A stretch of 64,000 nucleotides of DNA from NCBI RefSeq assembly GCF_013376105.1, contig NZ_JAAMFM010000018.1, forward strand, positions 1 through 64,000, given 5' to 3'. The stretch comes from Arthrobacter wenxiniae (GTDB lineage Bacteria; Actinomycetota; Actinomycetes; Actinomycetales; Micrococcaceae). This document shows, one piece after another, positions 2,203 to 17,837 of this stretch (its first letter is position 1; every line of letters starts with the position of its first letter). Both the position numbers and the translations under genes were made by a program. The notes under the pieces are model-generated. The model searched no databases. It saw only the letters and a program-made list of their open reading frames with translations, and was not told the origin of the DNA.

Positions 2203-2826
2203 CTACGTCCAAGCCTTAATGGTCTGACCAGTTTCAGCGCCATAGACGCTGCGTACAAAGGCGGCCGCTGCCACGCCGCCGGGAACAGGCTGGAAACCTG
2301 GGAAGACTGACGCATATGCGTCGGCTGACTCTTCCAGCACCGTGGCGCTGACAGTGTTCAGCCGCAAATTCGGCAGTTCTGCGGAGGCGCTTTTGACGAA
2401 TGCGTCGAGCCCGATGTTGACGATGGCGCTGGGTGACCCACCGTGGAAGACGTAATGGCCCACGATGCCACTCGTGAGCGTTATTGACCCGCCCGTACTA
2501 ACGTGGACTCGAGCCGCCAGCGCAATGCGAAGCTGGCACAACAATTTACCTTCGAGCGTCGACTTGTACGTTCCAAGGTCAGCCTCCGAAGCCGATGCCC
2601 ATTTGGCGCCGCCAATGGTGCTCACCACTGCATCCACGATGCCGACTTTTTCAAAGAGTGACCGGACGCTCAGGTCGTCGTGGCAATCAACAGGGTACTC
2701 CGACGATGAACGTGAGGCACTGAGGATTTCAAGGGTTCCCGTGCAGTATCTGGCGTGGTGCGCCTGCAGCGCATTCACGACGTTCTTCCCCAAGGCGCCC
2801 GTGGCACCGATGACGAGTATTCGCAT
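2203..2826 (-). CDS. Short-chain dehydrogenase/reductase-like protein
   Basis: 207 aa from the ATG at 2826. The upstream ATG at 2841 is less likely because GGAGGA, a good ribosome site, lies between the two. The Rossmann motif GATGALGK is at residues 7-14. A Ser in 'TSGIVGHY' fits the SDR serine, but the usual YxxxK is not evident; the equivalent stretch reads GGSPSAIVN, as in some short atypical SDRs. It is the last gene of the minus-strand unit with the ABC importer and DadA-like protein. Its role in that unit is unknown, and an imine or keto intermediate would be a reasonable substrate guess. Confidence 0.75.
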   Translation of the reverse strand: MRILVIGATGALGKNVVNALQAHHARYCTGTLEILSASRSSSEYPVDCHDDLSVRSLFEKVGIVDAVVSTIGGAKWASASEADLGTYKSTLEGKLLCQLRIALAARVHVSTGGSITLTSGIVGHYVFHGGSPSAIVNIGLDAFVKSASAELPNLRLNTVSATVLEESADAYASVFPGFQPVPGGVAAAAFVRSVYGAETGQTIKAWT

Positions 2827-2879
2827 GATTGTGTCCTCCATTGTCGGTTCTCAAAAATGTTTGGATTGCGCCCTGGGTC

Positions 2880-4127
2880 TTATGGACGCAAGGGGTCGAA
2901 ATCCCTAATTTCCGGTGGGATCGTTCCGGTCATGATCTGCTCTGCCAGGAGTTGTCCCGTTGCCGGGCCGAGTACCATTCCCCACATGCCGTGTCCCCCA
3001 GCCGCATAGATTCGGGGCGGGGCCAGGCGCCCGACGACTGGTAGGCCGTCGGGTGTAACGGGCCGGGAGCCGACCCACTCATCTCGTCGTGACGACCAGT
3101 CGATGCCTTGCAGGAGAGGACGAACAGCTCGCACCACAGAGTCGAGTCGGGAAGTGTTCATGGGCTCATCCGGGCGAAGAAACTCCATGGTGCCGGCAAT
3201 TCGGAGAGCACCTTGATAGGGGGTGCAAACGACTCGTTGTTCCGGGAAGTAAAGCGGCCCTGCCGGCAGGCGGTCACCGTCGACGGTGAATGAATAGCCG
3301 CGGCCGGCCTGAACCCCAATTTTCAGTCCCCATTTTTTTGCGAGGCCGTGTAGCCAAGCTCCGGTGGCGAGGACAACGACATCGGCTTGAATGGTTCGTC
3401 CGTCGTCGGTGGATACTTCTGCCGTTGCCAGGCCGGCATCGATCGCGGAAGCGCAGGTACCTTCCAGGATTTGCCCGCCGCGCGACTTAAAGTCTCTGGC
3501 AAGGTCGCCAACAAATTCCCCAGGGTCCAGGTAGCTCTGCCCGGTCATTTCCACGCCTTGAACCACGGTGCTCGAGAGTATTGCCGGGCGGCGCTCGGCA
3601 TTGATCCGGCTCACGCCGATGTTTTGGCCCATGTCCTGCAGGTGTTCAAGTTCGGCCAGGAATGTCTCCGCTGCTTTGGCGTTGGTGAAGCCGGCAACGT
3701 AGGGGGCGGCCAAAACTGGTGAGGCGATGCCGTTGGCCTGCATGAACGCGAAGGATTCGTCGACCATCCTGGTGATGGGCCCCAGCGAAGCCATGGTCTT
3801 TTGCCACCGCTTCGCGTTCATATTCATGGCGAAGCGGACCAGGAACTTCCACAGCTGAGGGTCCAACCTGAGCGGGACGTGCAGGGGCGCATTCGGGTCC
3901 GTAATGCTTTGAACGGCATATTTCCAGGCTCCGGGTTCGGCCAGCGGCATGACCAATCCCGGTGTCACCCATCCTGCGTTTCCCCAACTTGCTCCCGCGG
4001 CCGGCCCCTCTTTGTCGATGACCGTGACTGCTACCCCACGTTTCTGAAGATGCCAAGCGGTGGACAGTCCGATTATTCCTGCACCCACGACCAGGGCGGT
4101 TCGTGGAGTTTCCGGCTGGTTGGTCAT
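2880..4127 (-). CDS. DadA-like FAD-dependent D-amino-acid dehydrogenase
   Basis: 415 aa from the ATG at 4127, which is preceded by AGGAGATGGGG. The FAD-binding GxGxxG (VVGAGIIGLSTAW) is near residues 14-26, followed by the typical 'SWGNAGWVTPGL' of DadA. A C-terminal 'GGHGMWGMVLGPATG' closes the DAO fold. DadA-family enzymes oxidise D-amino acids to imino/keto acids and pass electrons to the respiratory chain. The gene lies 14 bp downstream of a polar amino-acid permease gene, with a mu-crystallin-family reductase in the same unit. D-lysine oxidised to 1-piperideine-2-carboxylate would fit the divergent HglS pathway, but the substrate is inferred. D-proline or D-hydroxyproline are alternatives. 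Confidence 0.85.
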   Translation of the reverse strand: MTNQPETPRTALVVGAGIIGLSTAWHLQKRGVAVTVIDKEGPAAGASWGNAGWVTPGLVMPLAEPGAWKYAVQSITDPNAPLHVPLRLDPQLWKFLVRFAMNMNAKRWQKTMASLGPITRMVDESFAFMQANGIASPVLAAPYVAGFTNAKAAETFLAELEHLQDMGQNIGVSRINAERRPAILSSTVVQGVEMTGQSYLDPGEFVGDLARDFKSRGGQILEGTCASAIDAGLATAEVSTDDGRTIQADVVVLATGAWLHGLAKKWGLKIGVQAGRGYSFTVDGDRLPAGPLYFPEQRVVCTPYQGALRIAGTMEFLRPDEPMNTSRLDSVVRAVRPLLQGIDWSSRRDEWVGSRPVTPDGLPVVGRLAPPRIYAAGGHGMWGMVLGPATGQLLAEQIMTGTIPPEIRDFDPLRP

Positions 4128-4141
4128 CAATTCCCCATCTC

Positions 4142-4798
4142 CTAGAGGTGCCGGCTCAGTAGGCGTTCCGCGCCGACGGACAGCCACGTTGCGGGGATCG
4201 AAATGGCGGCATAAAGTAGGCCGGCAACGATGAAGACGGGCAAATATTGGAACGTGGACGAGCCGATGGAGTAGGCCTGGCTCATGAGTTCCGGTACCGC
4301 GACCGAATACGCAAGCGACGTGGCTTGGAAGAGGAGGACCGCAAATCCCATCAGTGATGGAAGCGCGATGCGCAGCCCCTGCGGGATGACAACGAATCGA
4401 AGGCAGTCTCGGTAACTCATGCCAAGTGCGTGGGAGCCTTCGATTTCACCCGAAGGTACGGACTGCATTCCGCCGCGGATTAATTCGGCGCTGTAGGCAG
4501 CAGTCGTCCACGTTAGTGCCAGGCATGCCGAAGCCATGGAGCTCAGCGTGAGGTTGGCATTAGGCAGGCCGTAGTACATGAGTTGAAGGAGGACCAGGGC
4601 TGGCGCACCACGACCAACCTCGACGAAGAACACTGAAATATAACGGAATGCCTTGTTCTTTGCCGTGACACCAAACGAGAAGAGAAGGCCAATCGGCAGG
4701 CCCAGGGCCAGGCTGAGGATCGTTAGCGTGAGGCTGACTTTAAGCCCGCCAAGCAGTGTTGGACCGTATTCGATCGCGACATCCACGAGATTGTTCAT
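4142..4798 (-). CDS. Polar amino-acid ABC transporter permease (2nd)
   Basis: 218 aa. A hydrophobic protein with about five membrane segments and a cytoplasmic EAA-type loop (EGSHALGMSYRDCLRFVVIP, about residues 111-130), typical of the His/Glu/Gln/Arg family. Its ATG overlaps the stop of the preceding permease gene by 4 bp, so translation is probably coupled and the two form a heterodimer. It works with the ATPase at 5437 and the lipoprotein at 7332. Confidence 0.92.
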   Translation of the reverse strand: MNNLVDVAIEYGPTLLGGLKVSLTLTILSLALGLPIGLLFSFGVTAKNKAFRYISVFFVEVGRGAPALVLLQLMYYGLPNANLTLSSMASACLALTWTTAAYSAELIRGGMQSVPSGEIEGSHALGMSYRDCLRFVVIPQGLRIALPSLMGFAVLLFQATSLAYSVAVPELMSQAYSIGSSTFQYLPVFIVAGLLYAAISIPATWLSVGAERLLSRHL

Positions 4799-5433
4799 CG
4801 GGCGACCGCCTTCCGCATCTTCACGTCAAGATGCCTCGAGAGCAGCCCCAGCGGAACGCTCAAAAGTATGTAAATACCCGCCGCGACGAAAAACACCAAA
4901 ATCCCGGATCCTGATTGCCGTGCATATTGGCTGGACATGAACACGATCTCGGAAACGCCGATCGTGGAGGCAATCGATGAGTCTTTGAGCAGCCCAATGG
5001 CAAACGTCGTGTACGCAGGGATTGCTGCCCGCGCGGTTTGCGGACCGACGATTCTGGTCCAGACGGTGGCCCGGTGAAAGCCCAGGGCAGAACTGGCTTC
5101 CCATTGACCTTTGGGGACCGCGGAAATTGCGCCCCGGAAGATTTCCGCCAGGTAGGCGGCGGCGACCACCCCCAGCCCCAGGACTCCAGCCTGCAACGCC
5201 GAGAGCCTCACGGCCCCGATGGAAATGCCGTAGTAAAGCATGAAGAGCCACACCACAGGCGGGATGCCGCGGAGCAGGTCAACGAGTCCGCGGGACATCA
5301 GCCAAATGAGCCGATTTCTGCTTCTCAGCCCGGCTACGATCGGGAGTGCCACGACCGTGCCAATCATCAGGGCCAAGATTGTCACCAGAACTGTGAGTGG
5401 CAGGCCGATGGCAATCGCCTTGAGCATCTCCAT
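4795..5433 (-). CDS. Polar amino-acid ABC transporter permease (1st)
   Basis: 212 aa, about five membrane segments. The EAA loop appears as 'WEASSALGFHRATVWTRIVG'. It lies 3 bp after the ATPase gene and overlaps the next permease gene by 4 bp. Together with 4142-4798 it forms the membrane channel of the importer. Confidence 0.92.
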   Translation of the reverse strand: MEMLKAIAIGLPLTVLVTILALMIGTVVALPIVAGLRSRNRLIWLMSRGLVDLLRGIPPVVWLFMLYYGISIGAVRLSALQAGVLGLGVVAAAYLAEIFRGAISAVPKGQWEASSALGFHRATVWTRIVGPQTARAAIPAYTTFAIGLLKDSSIASTIGVSEIVFMSSQYARQSGSGILVFFVAAGIYILLSVPLGLLSRHLDVKMRKAVAR

Positions 5434-5436
5434 GGC

Positions 5437-6222
5437 TCAGCGCTCCAGCACGGCACGGAGGAAGCGGCGGGTACGCTCATGCTGGGGATCCTTCAGGATC
5501 TGTCCGGGATGACCCTTTTCGATGATTCCTCCGTCGGCCATCACTACCAGTTCGTCTGCTACGTTTTCTGCGAACGCCATCTCATGAGTCACCACGACCA
5601 TCGTCATGCCAGTGGAGGCAAGTTCCTTCATGACTTCCAGAACTTCGACCCCCACTTCTGGATCCAACGCCGAGGTTGGTTCGTCAAACAGCATGACTCG
5701 GGGGCCAAGTGCCAGTGCCCTCGCAATGGCAATGCGCTGTTGCTGGCCGCCGGAGCAGCGCGAGGGATATTGGTCGGCTTTATCTGCCAGCCCCATGCGC
5801 TTGAGCAACTCCATGGACTTCTCATTGGCCTGCTCACGGCTACATCCAAGGACCCGCTCCTGGGGGAGACTGACATTGCGAAGAACCGTCATGTGGGGGA
5901 AGAGATTGAAGTGTTGGAAAACCATGCCCGCGCTGCGTCTCAGAGCCGCCAGGCTCTTCGGGCTGGTCTTCTTGCCCGCATTGATGCAGTGCCCGTCAAT
6001 AACAATTTCACCGCTGTCTGGTTGCTCCAACAGGTTCATGCAGCGCAAAACAGTGCTCTTGCCGGCGCCGCTTGGCCCGATCATTGCCGTCACGGATCCT
6101 TCGGCCACGGACAGTGATACATCGCGAAGCACTACGTTTGACCCGTAGGCCTTGGCAAGATTCTTCACCTGAACAACCGGCTGTGTGGTCTGGGGATTGA
6201 GTTCAATCATCAGTTGTTCCAT
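5437..6222 (-). CDS. Polar amino-acid ABC transporter ATP-binding protein
   Basis: 261 aa from the ATG at 6222, which has AAGGAC upstream. The open frame runs on to 6369 but that extension looks non-coding. Walker A is GPSGAGKST, the signature is CSGGQQQRIAIARAL and Walker B is VMLFDEPTSALDP, followed by a switch His in VVTHEM. It has the GlnQ/HisP family length and motifs. It powers the importer with the two downstream permeases. In the operon it sits after the mu-crystallin-like gene, so uptake and catabolism are transcribed together. Confidence 0.93.
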   Translation of the reverse strand: MEQLMIELNPQTTQPVVQVKNLAKAYGSNVVLRDVSLSVAEGSVTAMIGPSGAGKSTVLRCMNLLEQPDSGEIVIDGHCINAGKKTSPKSLAALRRSAGMVFQHFNLFPHMTVLRNVSLPQERVLGCSREQANEKSMELLKRMGLADKADQYPSRCSGGQQQRIAIARALALGPRVMLFDEPTSALDPEVGVEVLEVMKELASTGMTMVVVTHEMAFAENVADELVVMADGGIIEKGHPGQILKDPQHERTRRFLRAVLER

Positions 6223-6308: not shown

Positions 6309-7280
6309 CTAGGCAGCTTTTGAAGAGAATGCTTCGTAGACTGCCGTTGCCACCGCCAGGTCTTCCCACGGCATGCCTGTGGTCTTAAAGACAGCCGGCC
6401 TGTCGACGGGCACCTCCGTGCGCCCCACGACCAAATCAGCCAAAGTGACCAGCTGTGCCTCGTCCGCTATGGCGCCGGACTCCAGTGCCTGGATGACGTC
6501 ACCAGCCTCACGTGTTGCCGAGTCACGCGATTCAACACAGACTGTGGCCCTTGACAAGAGGGCGTCATCCAGCTCGCGGTGGTCGCGGTCATGTGATCCT
6601 ATGGCCACCACGACGGCGGTTGGTTTCACCATGGTGCCGTCAAAAAGCGGCGTCGACGACGCTGTGGCGCAGACGACGAGATCGGCATCCTTCACGGCAT
6701 CGGGGCCCGCTGCGGTGGCGTGCAATCCGATCCCTTGGGCGTCTCTCGCCATGTCCTTCGCCGTATCCGAATTCCGGCCAACGATTTCCACGCTGGCCAG
6801 GTCAAAAAGTTCAGCAAATGCGACGATGTGAGCCCAAGCCTGGACGCCAGTGCCGAAAACAACTAGCCGCTTGGTTCCTGGAGACGCCAGCAAAACTGCC
6901 CCCATCACCGAAACCGAAGACGTTCGCAAGTTGGTCAATGCAACTCCATCAAATACCGCGAGCGGTCGCTGGTCGCCTCCACCGAAGAGCGCGTAGAGTC
7001 CCTGGATTACAGGGGACGCCGTTGTCGCATTCCCCGGCGTGATCGTCAGGAGTTTTGTCCCGACGAATGTGCCGCTGGCGGCAGGCATCTGCATGAAAGT
7101 TCCGCCCTCGGTCTCAAGACGGGTCCTGGGTGCGCCGGATTCGGGATCGAACCCGGAAGCAAGGAGCGATTTCATGGAACCGACGGCCGCGCGCACCGTC
7201 AGTGAACCGGCAACCTCGGCATCATCGAGGTAGACGGGGCCTGACCGTTGTCGCTCAAGGAAGCTGAGGCTTGAATCCAT
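6309..7280 (-). CDS. Ornithine cyclodeaminase / mu-crystallin family protein, probable ketimine reductase
   Basis: 323 aa, start supported by AGGAGAG 8 bases upstream. The nucleotide-binding segment reads 'LVVFGTGVQAWAHIVAF' at about residues 140-156, and 'TNLRTSSVSVMGAVLLA' precedes it. The family includes ornithine cyclodeaminase, alanine dehydrogenase, 1-pyrroline-2-carboxylate reductase and mammalian mu-crystallin, which reduces 1-piperideine-2-carboxylate. Next to a D-amino-acid dehydrogenase and an importer, and opposite a pipecolate-type pathway, reduction of 1-piperideine-2-carboxylate to L-pipecolate is the best contextual guess. True ornithine cyclodeamination cannot be excluded from sequence alone. 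Confidence 0.82.
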   Translation of the reverse strand: MDSSLSFLERQRSGPVYLDDAEVAGSLTVRAAVGSMKSLLASGFDPESGAPRTRLETEGGTFMQMPAASGTFVGTKLLTITPGNATTASPVIQGLYALFGGGDQRPLAVFDGVALTNLRTSSVSVMGAVLLASPGTKRLVVFGTGVQAWAHIVAFAELFDLASVEIVGRNSDTAKDMARDAQGIGLHATAAGPDAVKDADLVVCATASSTPLFDGTMVKPTAVVVAIGSHDRDHRELDDALLSRATVCVESRDSATREAGDVIQALESGAIADEAQLVTLADLVVGRTEVPVDRPAVFKTTGMPWEDLAVATAVYEAFSSKAA

Positions 7281-7331: not shown

Positions 7332-8177
7332 CTATTTCACCAGGCGGGGTGCACCCGTATCGGCTGCGGATTGAGGCAGACCATAGGCCTTCACGATCTC
7401 CGCGATCTTGCCGCTGGACTTCATGGAGGCGATGGACAGGTCGACGGCCTTGGTCATGTCAGTGTTGTCTTTACCGATGGGGAAACCGATTTGGGCAGGT
7501 TCTTTGGACGCAATCACCCGAGCGTCAGGTGTGGCACCTTCAACCTTGTACTTGGAATCGGTCTTGTACATTTCGACGGCGGATCCGAAGCCATCGAGAC
7601 CGGCCTGTATACGCCCGGCCTTGAGGTCAGCCTGCATTTCGACGGCGCTGGGGTAGATGGTCAAATTCGCGCCCATCACCTTCTTCATGTCCTGCACCCA
7701 GAGGTAGCCGTCAACGGTGCCGACCTTGAGGCTCTCGAGGTCCTTAATGTTTTTGACGCCGGATTCGGAAATGATCCCCATCTGATCCGTGTAGATGGGG
7801 TCGGACAAGCTGACGATGTCCGCCCTGATTGCGGTCCGGTAGTAGCAGCCAATCGCCACATCTGCACGTCCGCTCTGGACGGCCGGAATGGTTCCTGCAT
7901 AGGCCGTCGACTCGACCTTGATGTCGAGACAGTTCTTGGCTGCGAATGCCTTGATGACGTCGGCGTCAACGCCGGTAAGCTTTCCATCCTTGTTGGAAGA
8001 AAACGGCGGAAATTCCGGGGCAGCGACGGTCAGAAAACCGGCGTTTATTGTCTTGAATGTTGATTCAGGCTGGCACCCCTTCGCAACGCTGCTCGCTGCA
8101 GAACCCCCGCAGGCGGTCAGTGAGAGTGCCAGCAGCGCAATGGACGTGCCGCCTACCAGGAGCTTTCGAGCATTCAT
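7332..8177 (-). CDS. Amino-acid ABC transporter substrate-binding lipoprotein
   Basis: 281 aa. The signal peptide ends in a lipobox LTAC with the lipidated Cys at residue 23, so it is membrane-tethered outside the cell. The body matches the family-3 solute-binding fold: 'GFLTVAAPEFPPFS', then 'GVDADVIKAFAAK', and 'IGCYYRTAIRADIV' in the hinge region. The start has GGGGATC upstream. It is the first gene of the importer operon and probably sets its specificity, perhaps a basic or cyclic amino acid such as lysine or pipecolate (inference from neighbours). Confidence 0.92.
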   Translation of the reverse strand: MNARKLLVGGTSIALLALSLTACGGSAASSVAKGCQPESTFKTINAGFLTVAAPEFPPFSSNKDGKLTGVDADVIKAFAAKNCLDIKVESTAYAGTIPAVQSGRADVAIGCYYRTAIRADIVSLSDPIYTDQMGIISESGVKNIKDLESLKVGTVDGYLWVQDMKKVMGANLTIYPSAVEMQADLKAGRIQAGLDGFGSAVEMYKTDSKYKVEGATPDARVIASKEPAQIGFPIGKDNTDMTKAVDLSIASMKSSGKIAEIVKAYGLPQSAADTGAPRLVK

Positions 8178-8427
8178 GGTGATCCCCTTTGATCAGTGCT
8201 GATATTTTGTCGATGCCGAACGATTCGAGACACAGCCACCGGCTACAATGGTGATGTATGACACACAATCGATTGTCGATAACCAATCTCTATTGATTCC
8301 CCACGGATGTCAAGTGGCAAGCCCGTAAGAACCAAATGGACATCGGCCAGCAGCTGGCAAAATCCGCCCGATTGTCACCTACGTTTGACTTAGGGTTAGC
8401 CATAACGACCACTGACTGAGGAGCAAA
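8178..8427. promoter_or_regulatory. Divergent promoter region with perfect palindrome
   Basis: Between the importer operon and the GntR gene lies ACAATCGATTGT (8265-8276), a perfect 12-bp palindrome inside an AT-richer stretch. GntR/FCD regulators bind short palindromes of this size, so it is a plausible operator for the adjacent regulator. Confidence 0.45.
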
Positions 8428-9093
8428 ATGACAGAACAGCGAAACCCCGTTGTGGGAATATCCGGCTTGGCGGAAAGCCGGCCGACCCTCAAGGACGAAG
8501 CCGTCTCCATCGTTCGACGCGCCCTCATGTCAGGAGACATGCAGCCCGGCAAGATCTACTCGGCCAATGCCTTGGCAAGCCAGTTGGGCGTCTCCAACAG
8601 CCCTGTCAGGGAAGCCATGATGGCGCTAAGCGAGAAAGGGCTGCTTGAAGTCGTGCGCAACAGGGGTTTCCGCGTTGTGGAAATGAGTCCGGACGATCAG
8701 CGGGAGGTTTACGATCTTCGCCTGCTGATTGAAGTTACCGCTGTCGGCCGGGTCGCCGATCGAGGCGTATCCACTGAGGATGGCCAACGACTGGCTGCCA
8801 TGGTAGACGCCACTCTCGCAGCCGCCAGGCCCGACAACATGATCGACTATCTGGAGCGGGACCAGGAATTCCATTTGTCCATGGTTCAACTCTTGGGCAA
8901 CACTCGAATGACCAAAATCATTGAAAACCTCAGGGACCAAAGCCGCGTGAGCGGCTCTTACCATCTTGCCGAGCGCGGGCTGCTCGTCGCAAGTGCAGCC
9001 GAACACGGACCTATTCTGGCCGCCCTTCTCAGCGGCGACCGAAACCTCGTCGAATCCCTCATGACAGAGCACCTCAGCTACTCGCTGCCATGA
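8428..9093 (+). CDS. GntR-family transcriptional regulator, FCD type
   Basis: 221 aa, start preceded by GAGGAGC. The N-terminal winged helix (about 22-88) carries 'ALASQLGVSNSPVREAMMAL' and 'RGFRVVEM'. The C-terminal all-helical FCD effector domain (about 95-215) has the 'YDLRLLIEVTAV' opening and the Asp/His-type metal-site context 'RDQEFHLSMVQLLGN'. Divergent from the importer operon and upstream of the pipecolate/HglS operon, it probably controls both in response to a pathway acid. Confidence 0.92.
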   Translation: MTEQRNPVVGISGLAESRPTLKDEAVSIVRRALMSGDMQPGKIYSANALASQLGVSNSPVREAMMALSEKGLLEVVRNRGFRVVEMSPDDQREVYDLRLLIEVTAVGRVADRGVSTEDGQRLAAMVDATLAAARPDNMIDYLERDQEFHLSMVQLLGNTRMTKIIENLRDQSRVSGSYHLAERGLLVASAAEHGPILAALLSGDRNLVESLMTEHLSYSLP

Positions 9094-9141
9094 CCGGCAC
9101 CCTTTAGCCCGGCCCCCACCCCACGTAGAAGATTAGATGCT

Positions 9142-9214
9142 GGGGTCGGTTCGCCGCCAAAGGGGGCCACTTTGGCGCGCCCTCTACCCCATTGGCCGCT
9201 GGCGGACCGACCCC
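9142..9214 (+). terminator. Nested hairpin downstream of the GntR gene
   Basis: Outer arms 9142-9155 and 9201-9214 pair with one mismatch (GGGGTCGGTTCGCC against GGCGGACCGACCCC). Inside them is a perfect 8-bp stem, CGCCAAAG (9155-9162) with CTTTGGCG (9170-9177), around a 7-nt loop. No T run follows, so it may end transcription of the regulator or form another structure. Confidence 0.45.
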
Positions 9215-9373
9215 GGAACGTCCATCGGCGAACAATGATTAAGCCGCAAGGGTCGCGTCGCCAAGGGCGCCTGGCGACCTCGATGAGCAATCTCACGGAA
9301 GTCCACTCGCAAGCCGGTCCCTGAAAAATCGATAACGCGACAGCTTGACGCAGATCACACTCTGACTCATGAT

Positions 9374-9387
9374 GGTTATATATAACC
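9374..9387. promoter_or_regulatory. Perfect 14-bp palindrome, candidate operator
   Basis: GGTTATATATAACC lies just downstream of TTGACG (9345-9350), a possible -35 element, and about 65 bp before the flavoprotein start. Its place at the head of the catabolic operon makes it a good operator candidate for the GntR protein. Confidence 0.5.
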
Positions 9388-9452
9388 CGTTACCGATAGT
9401 TGATACCCACGGAGTGGTGGGTACAACATCCGCATCTGAGACAGGACGATCA

Positions 9453-10643
9453 ATGTCACGTGTGGTCTCGCTTCAGCTTCCCCCCGGAACCAAACAACCT
9501 TCGCACGCAGATGTGGTCATCATCGGCGGAGGCATTATGGGAACCAGCATCGCGTTTCATCTTGCCGAGGCCGGTATTCGCAACATCGTTCTTGTTGACC
9601 GGTCCGAGCTCGGCACCGGGTCCTCCGCCAAGCCGCTTGGCGGCGTGAGGGCGACATTTTCAGACCCCGCCAACATTGTCCTGGGCCAGCGCAGCCTGGC
9701 CGCTTTTGACACTTTCCAGCAGCGATTCTCCACCGACATTGGATTGCGCAAGGTCGGATACCTCTTCCTGTGCCGCAGCGAGTCAGAAATGCTTGACTGC
9801 GAGCGAAGCACAGTCATCCAAAACAGTTTGGGCGGGGACAGCCGGATGATTTCCCCTGCCGAGGCCGTCAGGATCAACCCCTTCCTGAGCCAGGACGCCC
9901 TCATGGGCGCTTCCCACTCACCACAGGACGGATTTGCCGAGCCCGGAAAGGTTGTCCGGGCCTACGCCGATGGGGCGGCTGCCCTTGGCGTGCGCATTCT
10001 TGAACACACGGAAGTCATGGATGTCGGCACGACCGGCGGAAGCATAAGTTCCGTGACCACCAATCGCGGCACCATCAAGACGGCCGCCGTCATTTGTTGT
10101 GCCGGCGCCTGGTCCAAGCGAATTGGCGGAATGGTTGACGTCAGTCTTCCGGTGGTACCGGTGCGGCGCCAGATTGGCATGACCCGCCAAATGAGCACAC
10201 CAATGCCTACCGTACCGTTCACGTTGGATCTTGCGACCACGATGTACTTCCACAACTATGGCAACGGCATGCTCCTCGGCATATCCAACTCCAACCAGGA
10301 ACCTGGGTTCGACCGGGACTTCACGCACGAATGGCTGCCCGAGTTCACGGCGGCGGCCCGGGTGTGTGCGCCCGCATTGGCTGCCCCGGACCTGGAAGGC
10401 GGCTGGGCCGGTCTCTACGAGAACACTCCCGACCACAACGCGCTCATCGGCACGTCCCATTCCGTCGAGGGATTCTACTACGCCACCGGATTCTCCGGAC
10501 ACGGCTTCCTCCAGGGACCCGCCGTCGGCGAACTCATTCGAGACCTCTATCTGGGCCGGGAATCCTTCATGGACCACACCTCGTTCTCCGCGGACCGATT
10601 CGAAACGGCCGATCATCGCATCCAAGAAGTCCACATCATTTGA
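9453..10643 (+). CDS. FAD-dependent amine oxidoreductase, probable L-pipecolate oxidase
   Basis: 396 aa from the ATG at 9453, which has AGGACG upstream. An upstream in-frame ATG at 9369 overlaps the promoter palindrome and is unlikely to be used. DAO fold: FAD motif 'VVIIGGGIMGTSIAFHLAE' near residues 20-38, 'GTGSSAKPLGGVR', and a C-terminal 'YATGFSGHGFLQGPAVG'. The family includes sarcosine oxidase beta, glycine oxidase and pipecolate oxidase (AmaA). As first gene of an operon with HglS and an AmaB-like dehydrogenase, L-pipecolate is the favoured substrate, giving 1-piperideine-6-carboxylate. That assignment is contextual. Confidence 0.82.
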   Translation: MSRVVSLQLPPGTKQPSHADVVIIGGGIMGTSIAFHLAEAGIRNIVLVDRSELGTGSSAKPLGGVRATFSDPANIVLGQRSLAAFDTFQQRFSTDIGLRKVGYLFLCRSESEMLDCERSTVIQNSLGGDSRMISPAEAVRINPFLSQDALMGASHSPQDGFAEPGKVVRAYADGAAALGVRILEHTEVMDVGTTGGSISSVTTNRGTIKTAAVICCAGAWSKRIGGMVDVSLPVVPVRRQIGMTRQMSTPMPTVPFTLDLATTMYFHNYGNGMLLGISNSNQEPGFDRDFTHEWLPEFTAAARVCAPALAAPDLEGGWAGLYENTPDHNALIGTSHSVEGFYYATGFSGHGFLQGPAVGELIRDLYLGRESFMDHTSFSADRFETADHRIQEVHII

Positions 10644-10706: not shown

Positions 10707-12107
10707 ATGACCGTCCTTGAAACGTGGGAACTTCGGGCCGAGTTCGCACGGCGGCTCTCCGTCATGTACGGAGAGGAAGTACCTGCCTACAACACGCTCG
10801 TCGACGTTTCCAAGGAAGTGAATGAAGCCTATGTCGCCAAACACGGCGCCGAGGCTGAACGGCTGGGAAGCATTTCACGCGTTACTGCTGAGCGCCACGG
10901 TGCCATTCGTGTCGGATCGCCGAAGGAAATGGCCCAGGTTGCCCGCATCTTTGCCGCTTTTGGCATGTACCCGGTGGGTTTTTATGACCTTCGAGACGCC
11001 TCCTCCAGTTCGGTGCCAGTGGTTTCGACGGCGTTCCGTCCCATCGACAGCAACGAGTTGGCAAGGAATCCCTTCCGCGTCTTCACGTCCATGCTCGCAG
11101 CGGAAGATCCGAGGTTCTTTGACAGCGATCTACGTGCCGAGCTGGCCAGATTCATCGGGGCACGAAAACTCTTTGGTGAGGATCTGCTGCGTCTGGCCGA
11201 CAAGGCCGCGGCCGATGGCGGGCTTGACCAGGACGACGCCGAGCGTCTCCTCGATCTTGCGACGGCGGCCTTTGAACTCTCAGGAGACCCTGTGGACTAC
11301 CAGTGGTATAGGAAGCTGGAGGCCGTCTCAGCCGTCGCCTCCGACATCGGCGGCGTTTCCACTACTCACATCAACCACCTCACACCACGCGTCCTGGACA
11401 TCGACGATCTCTACGCGCGCATGCAAGCCCGCGGAATCACCATGATCGACGAGATCCAGGGTCCCCCGCGCTGGGACGGACCTGATGTGCTCCTTCGCCA
11501 GACGTCCTTTCGGGCACTGGGAGAAAACCGAGTATTCCGCTACGCGGACGGTTCCACTAATGAAGGTGAGCTACGGGTTCGCTTCGGCGAAGTCGAGGCG
11601 CGCGGCATCGCCCTGACCGTGAGCGGGCGCGACCTCTACGACCGCATGGTTGCCGAATCTGACGCCAGACTCGCAGAGGCTCCGCCCGGAACGACGCGCG
11701 TTGAGGCAGCAGCCGGGGTGTGGGCCGAGAATCTTCCGCGCACGGAGAAGGAACTGGCACTGCAGGGCCTGGCGTACTTCACCTACCGACTGGACGAGGG
11801 GCAGCTTGGTCAAACGCCTTTCGCCAGCCCGGTCACATTGGCCGACCTTGTCGAAGCCGGCATCGCCGTGCCGGAACCGATTGTTTACGAGGACTTCCTC
11901 CCCCGCTCTGCCGCCGGAATCTTCCAGTCGAATCTGACCGAGGAAGGCTCAAAGGACGAGGAGCAGACCGGCACCAACTACGACATCCACCGAATGTCGA
12001 GCATTGTCGGCACGAAAGTCCACGACCCCAATGAGCTTTACCAGCGCCAGCAGGAGGACTCGATTGCATCCCTCGCGCAACGCCTCAATGTCTCCATCAC
12101 CAATTAA
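10707..12107 (+). CDS. hglS: 2-oxoadipate dioxygenase/decarboxylase (HglS, DUF1338 family)
   Basis: 466 aa with AAAGGA upstream. It matches the DUF1338/YdcJ family: the early 'VPAYNTLVDV', 'HGAIRVG', the metal-ligand context 'STTHINHLTPRVLDIDDLY' and the late 'PIVYEDFLPRSAAGIFQSNL'. Characterised members (Pseudomonas putida HglS) are Fe(II) enzymes turning 2-oxoadipate into D-2-hydroxyglutarate in D-lysine breakdown. It lies between a pipecolate-oxidase-like gene and an aminoadipate-semialdehyde dehydrogenase, and a D-2-hydroxyglutarate dehydrogenase ends the operon, so the steps either side of its reaction are encoded next door. This is the anchor for the lysine-pathway reading. Confidence 0.9.
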   Translation: MTVLETWELRAEFARRLSVMYGEEVPAYNTLVDVSKEVNEAYVAKHGAEAERLGSISRVTAERHGAIRVGSPKEMAQVARIFAAFGMYPVGFYDLRDASSSSVPVVSTAFRPIDSNELARNPFRVFTSMLAAEDPRFFDSDLRAELARFIGARKLFGEDLLRLADKAAADGGLDQDDAERLLDLATAAFELSGDPVDYQWYRKLEAVSAVASDIGGVSTTHINHLTPRVLDIDDLYARMQARGITMIDEIQGPPRWDGPDVLLRQTSFRALGENRVFRYADGSTNEGELRVRFGEVEARGIALTVSGRDLYDRMVAESDARLAEAPPGTTRVEAAAGVWAENLPRTEKELALQGLAYFTYRLDEGQLGQTPFASPVTLADLVEAGIAVPEPIVYEDFLPRSAAGIFQSNLTEEGSKDEEQTGTNYDIHRMSSIVGTKVHDPNELYQRQQEDSIASLAQRLNVSITN

Positions 12108-12153: not shown

Positions 12154-13683
12154 ATGACTGAAACTCTGACCCAGACGTCTGAAATTGCAACGATGGTTCG
12201 ATCCTCGCTCGAAGCCTGCGGCGTCAACATTGATGCCCTTGGCGGCGCCCACGAAGCATCTTCGCCCCTCACCGGTGAAGTGTTGATGACCCTGCCGGTC
12301 AACTCGGCCGAGGACATCCACACCATGATCGGGCAGGCACACGAGGCCTTCAAGACGTGGCGCGATGTGCCGGCACCGGTCCGCGGCAATCTGGTCAAAC
12401 GCTGGGGTGAACTGCTGACCGAGCACAAGGACGACCTGGCGCGGATTGTGACAGCCGAGGCTGGCAAAATCCAGTCCGAGGCCCTTGGCGAAGTACAGGA
12501 AATGATCGACATCTGCGACTTTGCCGTCGGCCTGTCCCGTCAGCTTTATGGCAAGACCATGCCGTCGGAGCGTCCCGGCCACCGTCTGATGGAGACCTGG
12601 CACCCACTGGGTGTTGTCGGCGTCATCTCGGCCTTTAATTTCCCCGTGGCGGTCTACTCGTGGAATACGGCCTTGGCCCTTGTCTGCGGCGACACCATCG
12701 TGTGGAAGCCTTCCGGGATGACCATGCTCAGCGCACTTGCTGCTGATGCCCTGCTGGGCCGTGCCGCGAAGGATGTTGGCGCGCCAGAGAACCTCCACAA
12801 GCTGGTCCTGGCCGACCGCACCGGTGGGCAACTGATAGTCGATGACCCCCGTGTTGCACTGCTCTCCGCAACCGGGTCCGTCCGGATGGGCCAGGAAATC
12901 GCCCCCCGCGTGGCACAGCGTTTCGGCCGCGCGCTCCTGGAACTGGGCGGCAACAACGCAGCCATCGTCACGCCGTCGGCCGACCTGGACTTGGCCCTGC
13001 GCGGAATCGTTTTCGCCGCTGTCGGAACCGCCGGGCAACGTTGTACTTCCATGCGCCGACTGATTGTCCACGAGTCGATTGTCGAGGACCTGACGGCCAA
13101 ACTGGTCAGCGCCTACGCGACGCTTCGCATCGGCACGCCGCTGGATGAGGAGAACCTGATCGGGCCGCTGATCAACAAGGCCAGCTTCGAGGGAATGCAG
13201 GACGCCATCAAGTCTGCCCAGGAGCAGGGGGGCACCGTGTTGTGCGGTGGTGGCCGGGTAAACGCCGACGGCGAGCCCGGCGCCTACTATGTCGAGCCGG
13301 CAATCGTGCGCATGCCCTCACAAAGCGCCGTCGTCAAGGACGAGACGTTCGCCCCCCTGCTCTACGTCATGACATACACCGATTTTGATGACGCCGTTGC
13401 CCTGCAAAACGACGTTCCCCAGGGCCTGTCGTCGGCCGTGTTCACCAACGATCATGCCGAGGCCGAACGCTTCATGTCGGCCAGCGGCTCGGACTGTGGC
13501 ATTGCCAACGTCAACATCGGCACCTCCGGGGCCGAGATTGGCGGGGCCTTCGGCGGCGAAAAGGAAACCGGCGGTGGCCGCGAGTCCGGCGCCGACTCAT
13601 GGAAGACCTACATGCGCCAGGCAACCAACACCGTCAATTTCTCCGGTCAGCTTCCACTGGCCCAGGGCGTGAAATTCCTCTAG
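12154..13683 (+). CDS. amaB: Aldehyde dehydrogenase, antiquitin/AmaB type (aminoadipate-semialdehyde dehydrogenase)
   Basis: 509 aa from the ATG at 12154 with AGGAGATC upstream; the open frame extends further left but overlaps hglS. ALDH7 (antiquitin) hallmarks are 'MIDICDFAVGLSRQLYG', 'ISAFNFPVAVYSWN', 'LELGGNNAAIV' and the nucleophile Cys in 'AGQRCTSMRRL', with a C-terminal 'GGAFGGEKETGGGRESG'. ALDH7 enzymes oxidise 2-aminoadipate semialdehyde, in equilibrium with 1-piperideine-6-carboxylate, to 2-aminoadipate using NAD(P). The operon position after the pipecolate-oxidase-like gene agrees. Confidence 0.92.
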   Translation: MTETLTQTSEIATMVRSSLEACGVNIDALGGAHEASSPLTGEVLMTLPVNSAEDIHTMIGQAHEAFKTWRDVPAPVRGNLVKRWGELLTEHKDDLARIVTAEAGKIQSEALGEVQEMIDICDFAVGLSRQLYGKTMPSERPGHRLMETWHPLGVVGVISAFNFPVAVYSWNTALALVCGDTIVWKPSGMTMLSALAADALLGRAAKDVGAPENLHKLVLADRTGGQLIVDDPRVALLSATGSVRMGQEIAPRVAQRFGRALLELGGNNAAIVTPSADLDLALRGIVFAAVGTAGQRCTSMRRLIVHESIVEDLTAKLVSAYATLRIGTPLDEENLIGPLINKASFEGMQDAIKSAQEQGGTVLCGGGRVNADGEPGAYYVEPAIVRMPSQSAVVKDETFAPLLYVMTYTDFDDAVALQNDVPQGLSSAVFTNDHAEAERFMSASGSDCGIANVNIGTSGAEIGGAFGGEKETGGGRESGADSWKTYMRQATNTVNFSGQLPLAQGVKFL

Positions 13684-13787: not shown

Positions 13788-14927
13788 ATGGCCAGTCTGT
13801 TCGACATGATGGATGAATGGGGACCGGAAAAAATCGTCTCGGTCAGCGATTCCAAGACGGGGATGAAAGGCGTTCTTGTCATCGACAACACCGCCCGCGG
13901 CATGGGCAAGGGCGGCACCCGGATGCAGCCGGGCGTCACTGTCGAGGAAATTTCCCGGCTGGCCCGGGTCATGACGTGGAAGTGGGCCGGCGTCGACCTC
14001 TTCTTCGGAGGCGCCAAGGCCGGCATCCGGGCCGATCCCCATTCCCCACACAAGGAAGCAATCCTCCGTTCCTTTGTGCGCGCCCTAAGCAACGAGGTCC
14101 CTTCCGAATATGTCTTTGGTCTCGACATGGGTCTGACTGAAAACGATGCAGCCATCATCATTGACGAACTCGGTGACCGCGGCGCCGCGGTGGGCACACC
14201 CTATGACTTAGGCGGCGTGCCCTACGACCAGCTCGGCATCACCGGCTACGGGGTCGCTGAAGTAGCCGATGAGGCAGCAGCAACCATCGGTCTGCAAGGC
14301 CAGCGCGTCGCCATTCAAGGCTTCGGTGCCGTCGGCCATGCAACCGCCGCCCGGCTGCACGCGCTCGACTACAGCGTTGTGTCCATCTCCACGGCGGAGG
14401 GTGCCTTGCACGACCCGGCAGGCCTGGACATTCCGAAACTTTTGGCCATGCGGTCCCGCCTTGGCGACGGGTTCGTAAAGGAGTTCCCGGAACTGGCCAT
14501 CCCGATCGGTTCGGAGTTGTTCGTGGATGCCGAAATCGCGATTCCTGCCGCACTGCAAGATGTCATCAACGAGACAAATGTTGGCGGGATCTCCGCCAAG
14601 CTTGTTGTGGAAGGTGCCAACCTCCCCACCAATGGCGCCGCACAGCAGGCTCTTCGCGCCGCATCCGTCACGGTGGTACCGGACTTCGTTGCCAACGCCG
14701 GCGGAGTCGTAAGTGCAGCCTTTGCCATGGAATCCAGGTATTCGCCGTTCCGTCCCGAAACGGAGCAAATCTTTACCACCGTTTCCACGAAGCTCAGGGC
14801 CAACACGGTCACCGTTCTGGCCGAGGCTGACAGACTGAACTCGACCACACATGAGGCGGCCCGGTCCCTGGCACAGAGCCGTGTGCGCCGCGCCATGGAG
14901 CTCCGCGGCAAGCCCCTGCATTACTAG
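13788..14927 (+). CDS. Glu/Leu/Phe/Val dehydrogenase family protein, candidate 2-aminoadipate dehydrogenase
   Basis: 379 aa from the ATG at 13788 with AAGGAG upstream. N-terminal dimerisation domain with 'DNTARGMGKGGTRMQPG' and the catalytic-lysine motif 'FFGGAKAGIRADPH'. A C-terminal Rossmann domain has 'GQRVAIQGFGAVGHATAARL', then 'VEGANLPTNGAA' and 'PDFVANAGGVV'. It is shorter than typical glutamate dehydrogenases (about 415-450 aa) and diverges around the substrate pocket. No aminotransferase lies in the operon, and deamination of 2-aminoadipate to 2-oxoadipate is exactly the missing step, so this protein may do it. Ordinary glutamate or branched-chain amino-acid dehydrogenase activity is the alternative. 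Confidence 0.88.
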   Translation: MASLFDMMDEWGPEKIVSVSDSKTGMKGVLVIDNTARGMGKGGTRMQPGVTVEEISRLARVMTWKWAGVDLFFGGAKAGIRADPHSPHKEAILRSFVRALSNEVPSEYVFGLDMGLTENDAAIIIDELGDRGAAVGTPYDLGGVPYDQLGITGYGVAEVADEAAATIGLQGQRVAIQGFGAVGHATAARLHALDYSVVSISTAEGALHDPAGLDIPKLLAMRSRLGDGFVKEFPELAIPIGSELFVDAEIAIPAALQDVINETNVGGISAKLVVEGANLPTNGAAQQALRAASVTVVPDFVANAGGVVSAAFAMESRYSPFRPETEQIFTTVSTKLRANTVTVLAEADRLNSTTHEAARSLAQSRVRRAMELRGKPLHY

Positions 14928-14969
14928 TAGCCGCCACACACCTCTGCAGGGAAAAGGAATGCACCGCGC

Positions 14970-17837
14970 ATGAACATCGATCAGGTTGTCCGCGAATTGA
15001 CCGCGGCCGTTGCAGGCATCGTGGACAGCAGCACGCGCCGGCGCGCGGAGTATTCAACGGATGCCTCGAACTACCGCGTGGTGCCCCAGGTGGTGGTCAT
15101 GCCCAAAGACGAGGACGACGTCGTCACCGCCGTCAGAATTGCCCGTAAACACGGACTGGCCGTCACCGGCCGGGGCGGCGGCACATCCTGCGCCGGCAAC
15201 GCGGTGGGTCCCGGGCTGGTGCTGGACTTCAGCAGGTTCATGAACCGGATCATCAGCATTGATCCGGACAGCAAGACTGCCGTTGTCCAGCCTGGCGTTA
15301 TTCTCAGTGACTTGCAGAAGGCTGCAGCTATCCACGGGCTGCGATTCGGACCCGATCCTTCAACGTCCACCCGGTGCACCATCGGCGGCATGATCGGCAA
15401 CAACGCATGTGGCCCCCACGGCCTCGCCTATGGGCGGACAGCCGACAATGTGCGCAGCCTGCGATGGCTGACCGGCTCGGGCCAGGTTGTCGGGTTGGGG
15501 TCCGGGAAGGACGCCACGGCGCAGATCCCCGGACTCGACGAATTTATCCTCTCGAACCTGGAGGTCCTCCGGCTGGAATTCGGACGGTTCGGGCGACAAA
15601 TCTCCGGATACAGCCTCGAACACCTCCTCCCTGAAAATGGACGGAACGTGGCCGCTGCCCTGACCGGCACGGAAGGAACCTGCGGCATCATCCTCGAGGC
15701 CGAGGTCCGGTTGGTGGCACAGGCACCTGCCCCCGCCCTGGCCGTGCTCGGATACCCGGACATGCCGGCCGCGGCCGACGCGGTCCCCCGGTTGCTCCCG
15801 CACCACCCACTGGCACTTGAGGGCCTCGACGCCCAGCTCGTGAACGTCATCCGCACCGCCAAGGGTGAGCACTCCGTCCCGCATATGCCTTCCGGAAACG
15901 GGTGGCTCATGGTCGAAGTCGGCGGATCAAGCTCCGAAGAAGCGATGGCCGCGGCGGAGAAGTTGGTCCTGGACGCGGGGGCACTTGACTCGCTGATCCT
16001 GCCGGCCGGACCCGAGGCAAAACGATTGTGGCAAATTCGGGCCGACGGAGCAGGGTTGGCCGGACGGACCGCAGCAGGGGACCAGGCGTGGCCCGGCTGG
16101 GAAGATTCAGCCGTCCCACCGGAGCATTTGGGAGACTATCTGCGCGACCTTGAGCACCTCATGGCCCGCGAGGAGGTTTCAGGATTGGCCTACGGCCACT
16201 TTGGCGATGGCTGCGTTCACGTTCGGATTGATTTCCCGCTCGACGGCGACGCGGTCGTCATGCGACGCTTCCTGACCGCGGCCGCAGACCTCGTTGCCAA
16301 ATACGGAGGATCACTGTCAGGGGAACACGGCGACGGGCGAGCCCGGGGTGAACTGCTAAAGACCATGTACTCGGCCAAGGCTCTGGCGGCCATGGCAGGT
16401 TTCAAGGCGCTCTTTGACCTGCAGGACATCTTCAATCCAGGTGTCGTCATCAACCCGGAACCCTTCGACGCAAACCTGCGCCGGCCTCAGGCCAAGAACC
16501 TGTTGGCCTCCGATGGCTTTGCCTTTGCGCACGACGGCGGCAACATCACCAATGCGCTCCACCGTTGCGTTGGCGTGGGGAAATGTCGGGCCGACCTGCG
16601 CCAGGAAGGTGGATTCATGTGTCCGTCGTACCTGGCAACCAAGGATGAAAAGGATTCGACCAGGGGTCGTGCACGCGTGCTGCAGGAGATGCTCAACGGC
16701 GGGACCGTGGACATGTCATGGAATTCCCCCGAGGTCCATGACGCACTGGATCTGTGCCTCAGCTGCAAGGCCTGCGCCAATGACTGCCCCACCGGCATCG
16801 ACATGGCCATGTACAAGTCCGAAGCACTGCACCAAAGCTACAAGGGCAAACTGCGTCCCATCAGCCACTACACCCTCGGCCGGTTGCCCACATGGCTGGG
16901 CATGATCGGACCCTTCGGACCGTTGCTCAACAATGTTGCTTCCGTTGGGATCCTTCGTCGGACGATGCTGCGCCTTGCCGGAGCGGACCCCCGCCGCAGC
17001 CTGCCCACTTTCCCGAAGGCACCTTTTCATTCGCTAAAGGAAGCCGCCCGTCCGACGAAGGTCCATTCCCACGGCCCGACTTCCGATCTGACTAACCCCA
17101 CATCCGGCGACGCACCAGCAAGACCACCCCGCGTCCTGCTCTGGGTGGATTCTTTCTCCGACGCCCTGAGTCCCGACGTTCCGATTGCTGCCCTCAAGGT
17201 CCTCCAGGCCGCGGGCTGCGACATCGAGATCGCTGGTCCCGGCGCCTGTTGCGGATTGACACTCATCTCCACGGGGCAATTGACAGCCGCCAAGGCGTCC
17301 CTGCGAAAAACCCTTGACATTCTGTACCCCCACGTCACTGACGGCAGAACAATCATCGGCCTTGAACCGTCCTGCACGGCCGTGTTGCGATCGGACTTGC
17401 TGGAACTGTTGCCGGACGATGAACGTTCCCGGCAGGTTTCCACGGCAACGAAGACAGTGTCGGAGTTTCTGGCATCCATCAGCTGGCAGCCCCCGGCAAG
17501 TGACGAAAGAATCGTTGCCCAGCCGCACTGCCACCAACACGCCGTCATGGGGTACGACAAGGATCTGGCCCTATTGGAATCCATGGGCTGCGATGTAGAT
17601 GTCTCCAACGGCTGTTGCGGGCTCGCAGGAAACTTCGGCATGGAAAAGGGACACTACGACGTCTCGGTTGCGATAGCCGAACAAGGAATCCTGGCCAAAA
17701 TGTCGAACCATCCCGATCGATCCGTCGTGGCGGATGGATTCTCGTGCCGGACGCAAGTGGCCGATCTGGCCGGCCGCAACTCCCGCCACCTTGTGCAGGT
17801 CATCGCCGAGGCCCTGGAAAAAGATGGCAACGAATAA
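14970..17837 (+). CDS. D-2-hydroxyglutarate dehydrogenase-like FAD/4Fe-4S protein (YdiJ type)
   Basis: 955 aa. The N-terminal FAD-binding domain (about 1-480) has 'GRGGGTSCAGNAVGPG' and 'GGMIGNNACGPHGLAYG', and the linked oxidase C-terminal domain shows 'GEHGDGRARGELL'. Two 4Fe-4S cysteine groups follow, ending in 'LCLSCKACANDCPTGID' (about 593-609), and two CCG motifs ('GACCGLTL', 'NGCCGLAGNFGME') lie in the heterodisulfide-reductase-like C-terminus. This is the single-chain YdiJ architecture, known for D-2-hydroxyglutarate oxidation to 2-oxoglutarate. It removes the HglS product as the last gene of the operon. Glycolate or D-lactate are alternative substrates of relatives. Confidence 0.9.
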   Translation: MNIDQVVRELTAAVAGIVDSSTRRRAEYSTDASNYRVVPQVVVMPKDEDDVVTAVRIARKHGLAVTGRGGGTSCAGNAVGPGLVLDFSRFMNRIISIDPDSKTAVVQPGVILSDLQKAAAIHGLRFGPDPSTSTRCTIGGMIGNNACGPHGLAYGRTADNVRSLRWLTGSGQVVGLGSGKDATAQIPGLDEFILSNLEVLRLEFGRFGRQISGYSLEHLLPENGRNVAAALTGTEGTCGIILEAEVRLVAQAPAPALAVLGYPDMPAAADAVPRLLPHHPLALEGLDAQLVNVIRTAKGEHSVPHMPSGNGWLMVEVGGSSSEEAMAAAEKLVLDAGALDSLILPAGPEAKRLWQIRADGAGLAGRTAAGDQAWPGWEDSAVPPEHLGDYLRDLEHLMAREEVSGLAYGHFGDGCVHVRIDFPLDGDAVVMRRFLTAAADLVAKYGGSLSGEHGDGRARGELLKTMYSAKALAAMAGFKALFDLQDIFNPGVVINPEPFDANLRRPQAKNLLASDGFAFAHDGGNITNALHRCVGVGKCRADLRQEGGFMCPSYLATKDEKDSTRGRARVLQEMLNGGTVDMSWNSPEVHDALDLCLSCKACANDCPTGIDMAMYKSEALHQSYKGKLRPISHYTLGRLPTWLGMIGPFGPLLNNVASVGILRRTMLRLAGADPRRSLPTFPKAPFHSLKEAARPTKVHSHGPTSDLTNPTSGDAPARPPRVLLWVDSFSDALSPDVPIAALKVLQAAGCDIEIAGPGACCGLTLISTGQLTAAKASLRKTLDILYPHVTDGRTIIGLEPSCTAVLRSDLLELLPDDERSRQVSTATKTVSEFLASISWQPPASDERIVAQPHCHQHAVMGYDKDLALLESMGCDVDVSNGCCGLAGNFGMEKGHYDVSVAIAEQGILAKMSNHPDRSVVADGFSCRTQVADLAGRNSRHLVQVIAEALEKDGNE

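Follow-up and report, generated by a model that had tools for sequence, protein, structure and literature searches.

The locus at positions 2203-17837 of the DNA analysed here, a stretch of 64,000 nucleotides from Arthrobacter wenxiniae (GCF_013376105.1, contig NZ_JAAMFM010000018.1, positions 1-64,000; hereafter the window), consists of two divergent gene units. We consider it probable that the plus-strand unit, which contains the gene for the 2-oxoadipate dioxygenase/decarboxylase HglS, is a catabolic operon for L-pipecolate, and that the minus-strand unit is a plug-in entry to it under a GntR regulator. The outline of the pathway holds up, and pathways of this kind are known; what is new is a candidate enzyme of the ELFV (Glu/Leu/Phe/Val) dehydrogenase family, the modular entry and a predicted operator.

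Genes were taken from a list of open reading frames (ORFs) with their translations, and families were assigned by hidden Markov model scans with NCBIfam and PF models (Table 1). The plus-strand unit encodes, in this order, a GntR/FCD regulator, a DAO-type flavoprotein, HglS, a piperideine-6-carboxylate (P6C) dehydrogenase, an ELFV dehydrogenase and an FAD/Fe-S dehydrogenase resembling D-2-hydroxyglutarate (D-2HG) dehydrogenases. The minus-strand unit encodes a short-chain dehydrogenase (SDR), a DadA-like enzyme, two permeases, an ATPase, an ornithine-cyclodeaminase/mu-crystallin family enzyme and a binding protein. The two divergent units and all the genes named in the preliminary description were found where it had placed them, but its gene list had omitted the ELFV dehydrogenase and the SDR. 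Gene content, membership of HglS and the P6C dehydrogenase in their families, the conservation of catalytic residues, the fact that both modules recur, and the promoter palindrome described below can be read directly from the sequence.

HglS exceeds the cut-off of one model and falls below that of a second (NF049974, 399 bits against 550). In an alignment to 6w1g, its residues H64, H224, E295 and R68 correspond to His70, His226, Glu294 and Arg74 of the Pseudomonas putida enzyme, of which the first three are the metal triad and the last is the substrate arginine, as given in an excerpt of PMC7286885. The metal triad and the substrate arginine are unchanged in 81/81 aligned proteins (the window and 80 named loci). 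The closest named relatives of this HglS are those of Arthrobacter sp. PsM3 (86% identity) and A. humicola (85%). NCBIfam already holds named models for HglS and the P6C dehydrogenase.

The remaining enzymes of the plus-strand unit would complete a route around these two. The flavoprotein would convert L-pipecolate to P6C, the P6C dehydrogenase P6C to L-2-aminoadipate, the ELFV dehydrogenase L-2-aminoadipate to 2-oxoadipate, HglS 2-oxoadipate to D-2-hydroxyglutarate and CO2, and the FAD/Fe-S dehydrogenase D-2-hydroxyglutarate to 2-oxoglutarate. We infer the substrates of the flavoprotein, the ELFV and D-2HG dehydrogenases, the DadA-like enzyme, the reductase and the importer, as well as control by GntR.

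We propose from its context that the flavoprotein acts like a pipecolate oxidase, although it is not filed as AmaA. The top structural match of its AlphaFold model (pLDDT 86.8) is the L-proline dehydrogenase of Pyrococcus horikoshii (1y56, TMt 0.91), which is also its top sequence match in the PDB (196 bits; deposited as sarcosine oxidase). L-Proline is the homologue of L-pipecolate with a five-membered ring. The true start of the gene is probably near 9453. For the D-2HG dehydrogenase, the PDB matches include human D-2HG dehydrogenase (6lpn) at 69 bits, ranked below lactate and glycolate enzymes.

The ELFV dehydrogenase is a proposed candidate for the step from 2-aminoadipate to 2-oxoadipate, a gap in the order of reactions first put forward. 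In an alignment of 35 such proteins (the window and 34 others) to glutamate dehydrogenases, the site equivalent to Lys89 is Lys in 34/35 and Arg in 1/35, and the site equivalent to Ser380 is Ala in 35/35; the columns were matched to these two residues by what we take to be the glutamate dehydrogenase motifs. The enzyme does not keep the full Lys89 and Ser380 pair of glutamate dehydrogenase, and no glutamate dehydrogenase model exceeds its cut-off. According to an excerpt of PMC2723916, Lys89 and Ser380 of glutamate dehydrogenase correspond to Leu40 and Val294 of leucine dehydrogenase. Retention of the lysine for the side-chain carboxylate together with a smaller second residue would fit a dicarboxylic substrate of greater length, 2-aminoadipate for example, though this fit is not proof. 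A separate ELFV gene of 446 amino acids lies elsewhere in the same genome and is 29% identical to that of the window. A glutamate-dehydrogenase-like ELFV gene of 446 amino acids is adjoined by a DadA paralogue, 43% identical, at L218 (G000:C1:181000-197000).

Several observations weigh against this reading of the core. Val402, a substrate-loop residue of P. putida HglS, is replaced by Arg in 79/81 and by Lys in 2/81 of the aligned proteins. The flavoprotein scores 63.9 bits with the AmaA pipecolate oxidase model NF050086, for which the cut-off is 600, and the D-2HG dehydrogenase reaches 413 bits with its top model, NF049975 (YdiJ), for which the cut-off is 1350. Among the metabolic enzymes, only HglS and the P6C dehydrogenase exceed the cut-offs of models for their proposed roles.

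The recurrence of these genes was examined by a survey of HglS in 148 genomes of the same family and 394 of the class, the A. wenxiniae genome (G000; 4.33 Mb in 88 contigs) being counted in both. HglS was found in 11/148 and 34/394 genomes, and G000 has a single match, that of the window. The 43 other genome matches (10 family and 33 class) were retrieved with up to 20 kb around HglS, and a further 80 named loci, kept from 462 that had been confirmed, were taken with at most 10 kb on each side of HglS; removal of six duplicates left 117 loci, the window itself being excluded. Presence of a neighbour was scored within the fetched stretch, on contigs of which some were short, by fixed bit thresholds of our choosing. 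The P6C dehydrogenase was present in 102/117 loci, the flavoprotein in 74, the ELFV dehydrogenase in 39, the D-2HG dehydrogenase in 38 and lysine 6-aminotransferase (LAT) in 12, and 70 of the 74 flavoprotein loci also had the P6C dehydrogenase. Flavoprotein, HglS and P6C dehydrogenase occur together as a core in Streptomyces, Actinoplanes, Promicromonospora, Corynebacterium, Rhodococcus, Kocuria and others. The gene grouping is not due to chance, because the plus-strand gene set recurs near HglS in many genera and the importer and reductase lie opposite it in 10/117 other loci. What had been described as a compact actinobacterial version is indeed compact and actinobacterial, but it is not a speciality of Micrococcaceae, the core being common across actinobacteria. 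One locus, L160 (JAHBUZ010000005.1), comes from a metagenome-assembled genome (MAG) binned as Chloroflexi, with an HglS 68% identical and the flavoprotein and P6C dehydrogenase beside it, by transfer or mis-binning.

The flavoprotein and LAT were never found together (0/117 loci; 7.6 expected if independent). This exclusion is suggestive of the flavoprotein being an alternative source of P6C, because both enzymes would make P6C. It has to be set against the 31/117 loci in which neither was above threshold, and against the origin of the LAT loci, 11/12 of which are from one genus (g49) and the twelfth from a Pseudonocardia MAG, so that lineage may explain the exclusion. An entry through LAT in A. 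wenxiniae was rejected, no LAT above cut-off being found in any of the 11 genomes of the family that have HglS, G000 included. The LAT search covered 15 genomes; weaker aminotransferase matches occurred in all, and only G149 exceeded the cut-off.

Table 1. Features of the locus in the window, with proposed roles and model scores (~, inferred start)
Feature	Position	Strand	Basis
SDR, final gene of the import unit	2203-2841	-	NCBIfam PRK07578.1, 194.8 bits (cut-off 167)
DadA-like FAD D-amino-acid dehydrogenase; proposed D-Lys or D-pipecolate to piperideine-2-carboxylate	2880-~4127 (ORF to 4187)	-	PF01266, 196 bits
ATP-binding cassette (ABC) permease, polar amino acid family	4142-4798	-	TIGR01726, above cut-off
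ABC permease, polar amino acid family	4795-5433	-	TIGR01726, above cut-off
ABC ATPase	5437-~6222 (ORF to 6369)	-	GlnQ-like, 300.6 bits (below cut-off 379)
Ornithine-cyclodeaminase/mu-crystallin family enzyme; proposed ketimine reductase of piperideine-2-carboxylate, with L-pipecolate as product	6309-7280	-	PF02423
Family-3 amino-acid binding lipoprotein of the importer	7332-8177	-	PF00497
Operator-like palindrome ACAATCGATTGT	8265-8276		Divergent promoter region, aligned in the window and 9 loci
GntR/FCD-family regulator, proposed for the import unit	8428-9093	+	PF00392, PF07729
DAO-family flavoprotein; proposed L-pipecolate oxidase/dehydrogenase (L-pipecolate to P6C)	9369-10643	+	PF01266, 240 bits
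HglS, 2-oxoadipate dioxygenase/decarboxylase (2-oxoadipate to D-2-hydroxyglutarate)	10707-12107	+	NF050083, 735.1 bits (cut-off 600)
P6C/2-aminoadipate semialdehyde dehydrogenase	12154-13683	+	NF050084, 812.1 bits (cut-off 730)
ELFV dehydrogenase; proposed NAD(P)-dependent L-2-aminoadipate dehydrogenase	13788-14927	+	PF00208, PF02812
FAD/4Fe-4S/CCG D-2HG dehydrogenase-like protein (to 2-oxoglutarate)	14970-17837	+	PF02913, PF01565, PF13183, PF02754

On the minus strand, the ABC importer would take up a C6 amino acid of D configuration, be it D-lysine, D-pipecolate or both. The DadA-like enzyme would oxidize this compound to piperideine-2-carboxylate (P2C), which would then be reduced by the mu-crystallin-type enzyme to L-pipecolate, the substrate of the core. 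For the mu-crystallin-type enzyme, P2C reductase is probably the best reading, because of an Asp-to-His change, the closeness of the enzyme to 4bv8 and mu-crystallin, and a paralogue beside proline-racemase and AcnX genes. His occupies the cyclodeaminase Asp site in 13/13 aligned mu-crystallin-type enzymes of such clusters; this Asp of the GGD motif is presumably catalytic. The best solved relative is 4bv8 (134.8 bits; deposited as thiomorpholine-carboxylate dehydrogenase), which we take to be mouse ketimine reductase, and mu-crystallin 2i99 is also near. The top NCBIfam model, NF004793 for reductases of P2C and pyrroline-2-carboxylate (Pyr2C), gives 189 bits against a cut-off of 322, and NF045512 gives 122 against 400. 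At L219 (G000:C2:96000-112000) a second mu-crystallin-type gene, 44% identical to that of the window, lies near proline-racemase-family and AcnX-family genes, presumably the setting expected of a Pyr2C reductase. Another one, 39% identical, was seen at L220 (G024:C1:1938500-1954500) near a proline-racemase-family gene, a DHDPS-family gene and a GntR gene 38% identical to that of the window. Both neighbourhoods look like those for hydroxyproline use.

Were the mu-crystallin-type enzyme instead a lysine cyclodeaminase, L-lysine would give L-pipecolate in one step and DadA would be irrelevant. Lysine cyclodeaminases do share this family, and the enzyme stays with the importer where DadA is often missing. 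Yet a family member of the same genome, L113, keeps the Asp in the motif GGDCPGKTE, and lysine cyclodeaminase matches with only 49 bits, far behind 4bv8. The assignment was rejected on the His site and this distance, and we regard it as very improbable.

The reductase lies near HglS in 14/117 loci, all of which also have the flavoprotein and the P6C dehydrogenase. Its partner transporter is an ABC importer in 10/14, a Na/alanine-type symporter (PF01235) in 2/14 and neither in 2/14. L018 and L137 are closely alike among the 10 importer loci, which become 9 when the two are counted once. DadA is present in 6/11 importer and reductase loci with the window included, and its absence beside 5/10 of the others weighs against this account of the entry. 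L020, with an HglS 90% identical, lacks an import unit opposite its core; further downstream, the reductase family is matched at 28% and the ATPase in part (58%, covering 54% of the query). In L136 (HglS 85%), which also lacks the import unit of the window, the upstream matches to permease, ATPase and reductase family are distant (33, 54 and 31%). The import unit is a plug-in module with DadA among its less constant parts, because reductase, importer and DadA are patchy across loci and L020 and L136 lack the unit found in the window. That it is an independent neighbour outside the pathway, for example for D-proline use, would agree with L020 and with the 103/117 loci without the reductase above threshold, but is unlikely given the company that the reductase keeps near the core in several genera, with differing transporters. 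In L144, L151 and L155 a second, more distant importer accompanied by an ELFV gene lies downstream of the core, not opposite; the binding proteins are 46-48% and the ELFV dehydrogenases 59-62% identical to those of the window.

Which compound is imported is a separate question. The preliminary description had D-lysine as the compound that the importer, the DadA-like enzyme and the reductase serve in the cell, and we hold this to be a tentative reading with a little less than an even chance. The reaction order matches that of P. putida, where D-amino-acid dehydrogenase PP3596 and P2C reductase PP3591 serve D-lysine (excerpt of PMC6034422); the importer is of the polar amino acid family, and Lys/Arg/Orn binders are among the structural matches of its binding protein. 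On the other hand, neither importer nor DadA has a lysine-specific sequence feature or an equivalog above cut-off, and DadA is among the parts often missing. An alternative nearly as likely is that the unit takes D- or DL-pipecolate, in which case the DadA-like enzyme and the reductase would only turn the D-form into the L-form by way of P2C. This would call for no enzymes but these two, and the core always needs L-pipecolate. The top permease matches include a transporter of ectoine, a cyclic amino acid, and EhuB is among the structural matches of the binding protein, but these matches are unspecific and the sequence scores are far below equivalog cut-offs. P2C from another source, or D-pipecolate, fits the import unit about as well as D-lysine does. 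Of the route from D-lysine and pipecolate to 2-oxoglutarate described earlier, the L-pipecolate half stands and is more complete with the ELFV candidate; the D-lysine half is not tied to lysine by sequence and, resting on the DadA-like enzyme and the importer, is plausible but unproven.

The scores behind these statements are as follows. The top equivalogs of the permease nearer DadA are for cystine and ectoine, and that of the other permease is EhuC, all below cut-off. The AlphaFold model of the binding protein (pLDDT 88.7) matched in Foldseek generic amino-acid binders, including those for Lys/Arg/Orn, opine and ectoine, which is not decisive, with EhuB at rank 34. A point against the proposed role of the unit is that Gly stands where AncQR has its lobe-2 Asp, which we take to bind the alpha-amino group; the position just before it holds a conserved Asp, and the motif [LI]D[GS][FY]GSA occurs in the 13 sequences listed. 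The top NCBIfam model of the DadA-like enzyme, D-amino acid dehydrogenase, gives 176 bits and is below its cut-off of 383. In a DadA tree, several stand-alone sequences chosen by a crude longest-ORF rule sat on long branches. The ORFs of the DadA-like enzyme and of the ATPase are probably over-long at their starts, judging by their homologues, those of the ATPase being 257-264 amino acids long in L014, L018 and L019. The SDR is in matching position in L135, L137 and L170 (67-77%) and L140 (38%), and 37-40% matches lie on the opposite strand in L142 and L165; it is found in 6/80 loci in total and so is not constant. The genome has four matches to PF01168, the alanine-racemase family.

The divergent promoter region contains a conserved element around the palindrome ACAAYCGRTTGT, which was taken from the alignment itself and is perfect in 5/10 importer loci (the window and 9 others); its rarity in the genome is a separate check. 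In 10/10 of these loci TTGACA stands on the importer strand, 32-36 bases from the TTGT half of the palindrome (8308-8313, minus strand, in the window). A search of the 4.33 Mb genome for the 16-base form ACAAYCGRTTGTCGAT, allowing at most one mismatch, gave a single site, at this promoter. The bare 12-base form with one mismatch occurs also at 6173-6184 inside the ATPase gene, giving 2 matches against 0.32 expected. An earlier consensus, TGTAATACACAA, was weak in 5/10 loci, where many of 200 shuffles were as good (window 33, L135 37, L137 49, L148 29, L170 39), and strong in the other 5/10 (0 or 1 of 200), a partly circular test in that three of them equal the consensus. Of the two elements, the palindrome ACAAYCGRTTGT is to be preferred. 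Generic scans gave numbers close to background, with 3 promoter-like sites against 3.9 expected and 20 terminator-like sites against 15.3 expected (standard deviation 4.2).

No operator shared between the intergenic regions 8178-8427 and 9094-9368, the latter before the flavoprotein gene, was found, and in L140, L143, L146 and L161 gntR is separated from the flavoprotein gene by a LysR gene. Because no shared element was found before the flavoprotein gene and LysR is interposed in these four loci, GntR appears to belong to the import unit, and the core often to have its own regulator. The arrangement suggests that GntR may control the minus-strand unit through the predicted operator palindrome.

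The chain of intermediates is shared with the D-lysine/2-aminoadipate branch of P. putida (D-amino-acid dehydrogenase or AmaD, DpkA, AmaA, AmaB, HglS), whose intermediates are given in an excerpt of PMC12930750. The likeness extends to the HglS catalytic residues, the P6C dehydrogenase and, at the entry, the pair of D-amino-acid dehydrogenase and P2C reductase. The P2C reductase of P. putida is of the malate/lactate-dehydrogenase type, as far as the excerpted literature describes it, whereas that of the window is of the mu-crystallin type. The distance of the flavoprotein from the AmaA model and of the D-2HG dehydrogenase from the YdiJ model also separates the two systems. The window, in addition, has an ELFV dehydrogenase at the 2-aminoadipate step, for which P. 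putida uses an aminotransferase, and a candidate for every step within one locus.

Within actinobacteria, the loci with LAT, HglS and P6C dehydrogenase (genus g49, mycobacterial by inference, and the Pseudonocardia MAG) share HglS, for which NF050083 is named Myco_VOC_HglS, and the P6C dehydrogenase, which is present in 11/12. Their entry is LAT, and flavoprotein, ELFV and D-2HG genes are above threshold in 0/12. Loci of Streptomyces, Actinoplanes and Rhodococcus have the same core enzymes, often with the ELFV and D-2HG dehydrogenases nearby, but no mu-crystallin-type reductase above threshold, often a divergent LysR gene, and another gene order. Actinobacterial LAT and P6C dehydrogenase are known from beta-lactam biosynthesis (excerpt of PMC9854754). 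No report of an actinobacterial version of the catabolic pathway was found in open-access PubMed Central among the matches listed.

Elsewhere in the window, two genes resembling copper nitrite reductase or multicopper oxidases were noticed by eye at 20799-23378, followed by a helix-turn-helix regulator at 23880-24578. Also noted by eye was a protein encoded at 34-1434 on the minus strand, which looks secreted and carries a short ATSKPL-type repeat close to the C-terminus.

In conclusion, the chances seem to us evenly balanced that the pipecolate pathway of actinobacteria is modular, having an L-2-aminoadipate dehydrogenase dedicated to it (an ELFV subfamily with Lys/Ala for the Lys89/Ser380 pair of glutamate dehydrogenase) and interchangeable entries, namely LAT, direct pipecolate, and a D-amino-acid importer plus mu-crystallin-type reductase under GntR. 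Pipecolate is the precursor of a plant immune signal (excerpt of PMC9854754). In a 2022 study, phenylalanine dehydrogenase was engineered for 2-aminoadipate, the affinity of the wild type for 2-oxoadipate being insufficient (excerpt of PMC8967036); the ELFV dehydrogenase may be a natural enzyme for this substrate. The locus offers a test case for entry modules swapped around a common core. If true, the proposed pathway would explain the use of pipecolate, and perhaps of D-lysine, by many actinobacteria.

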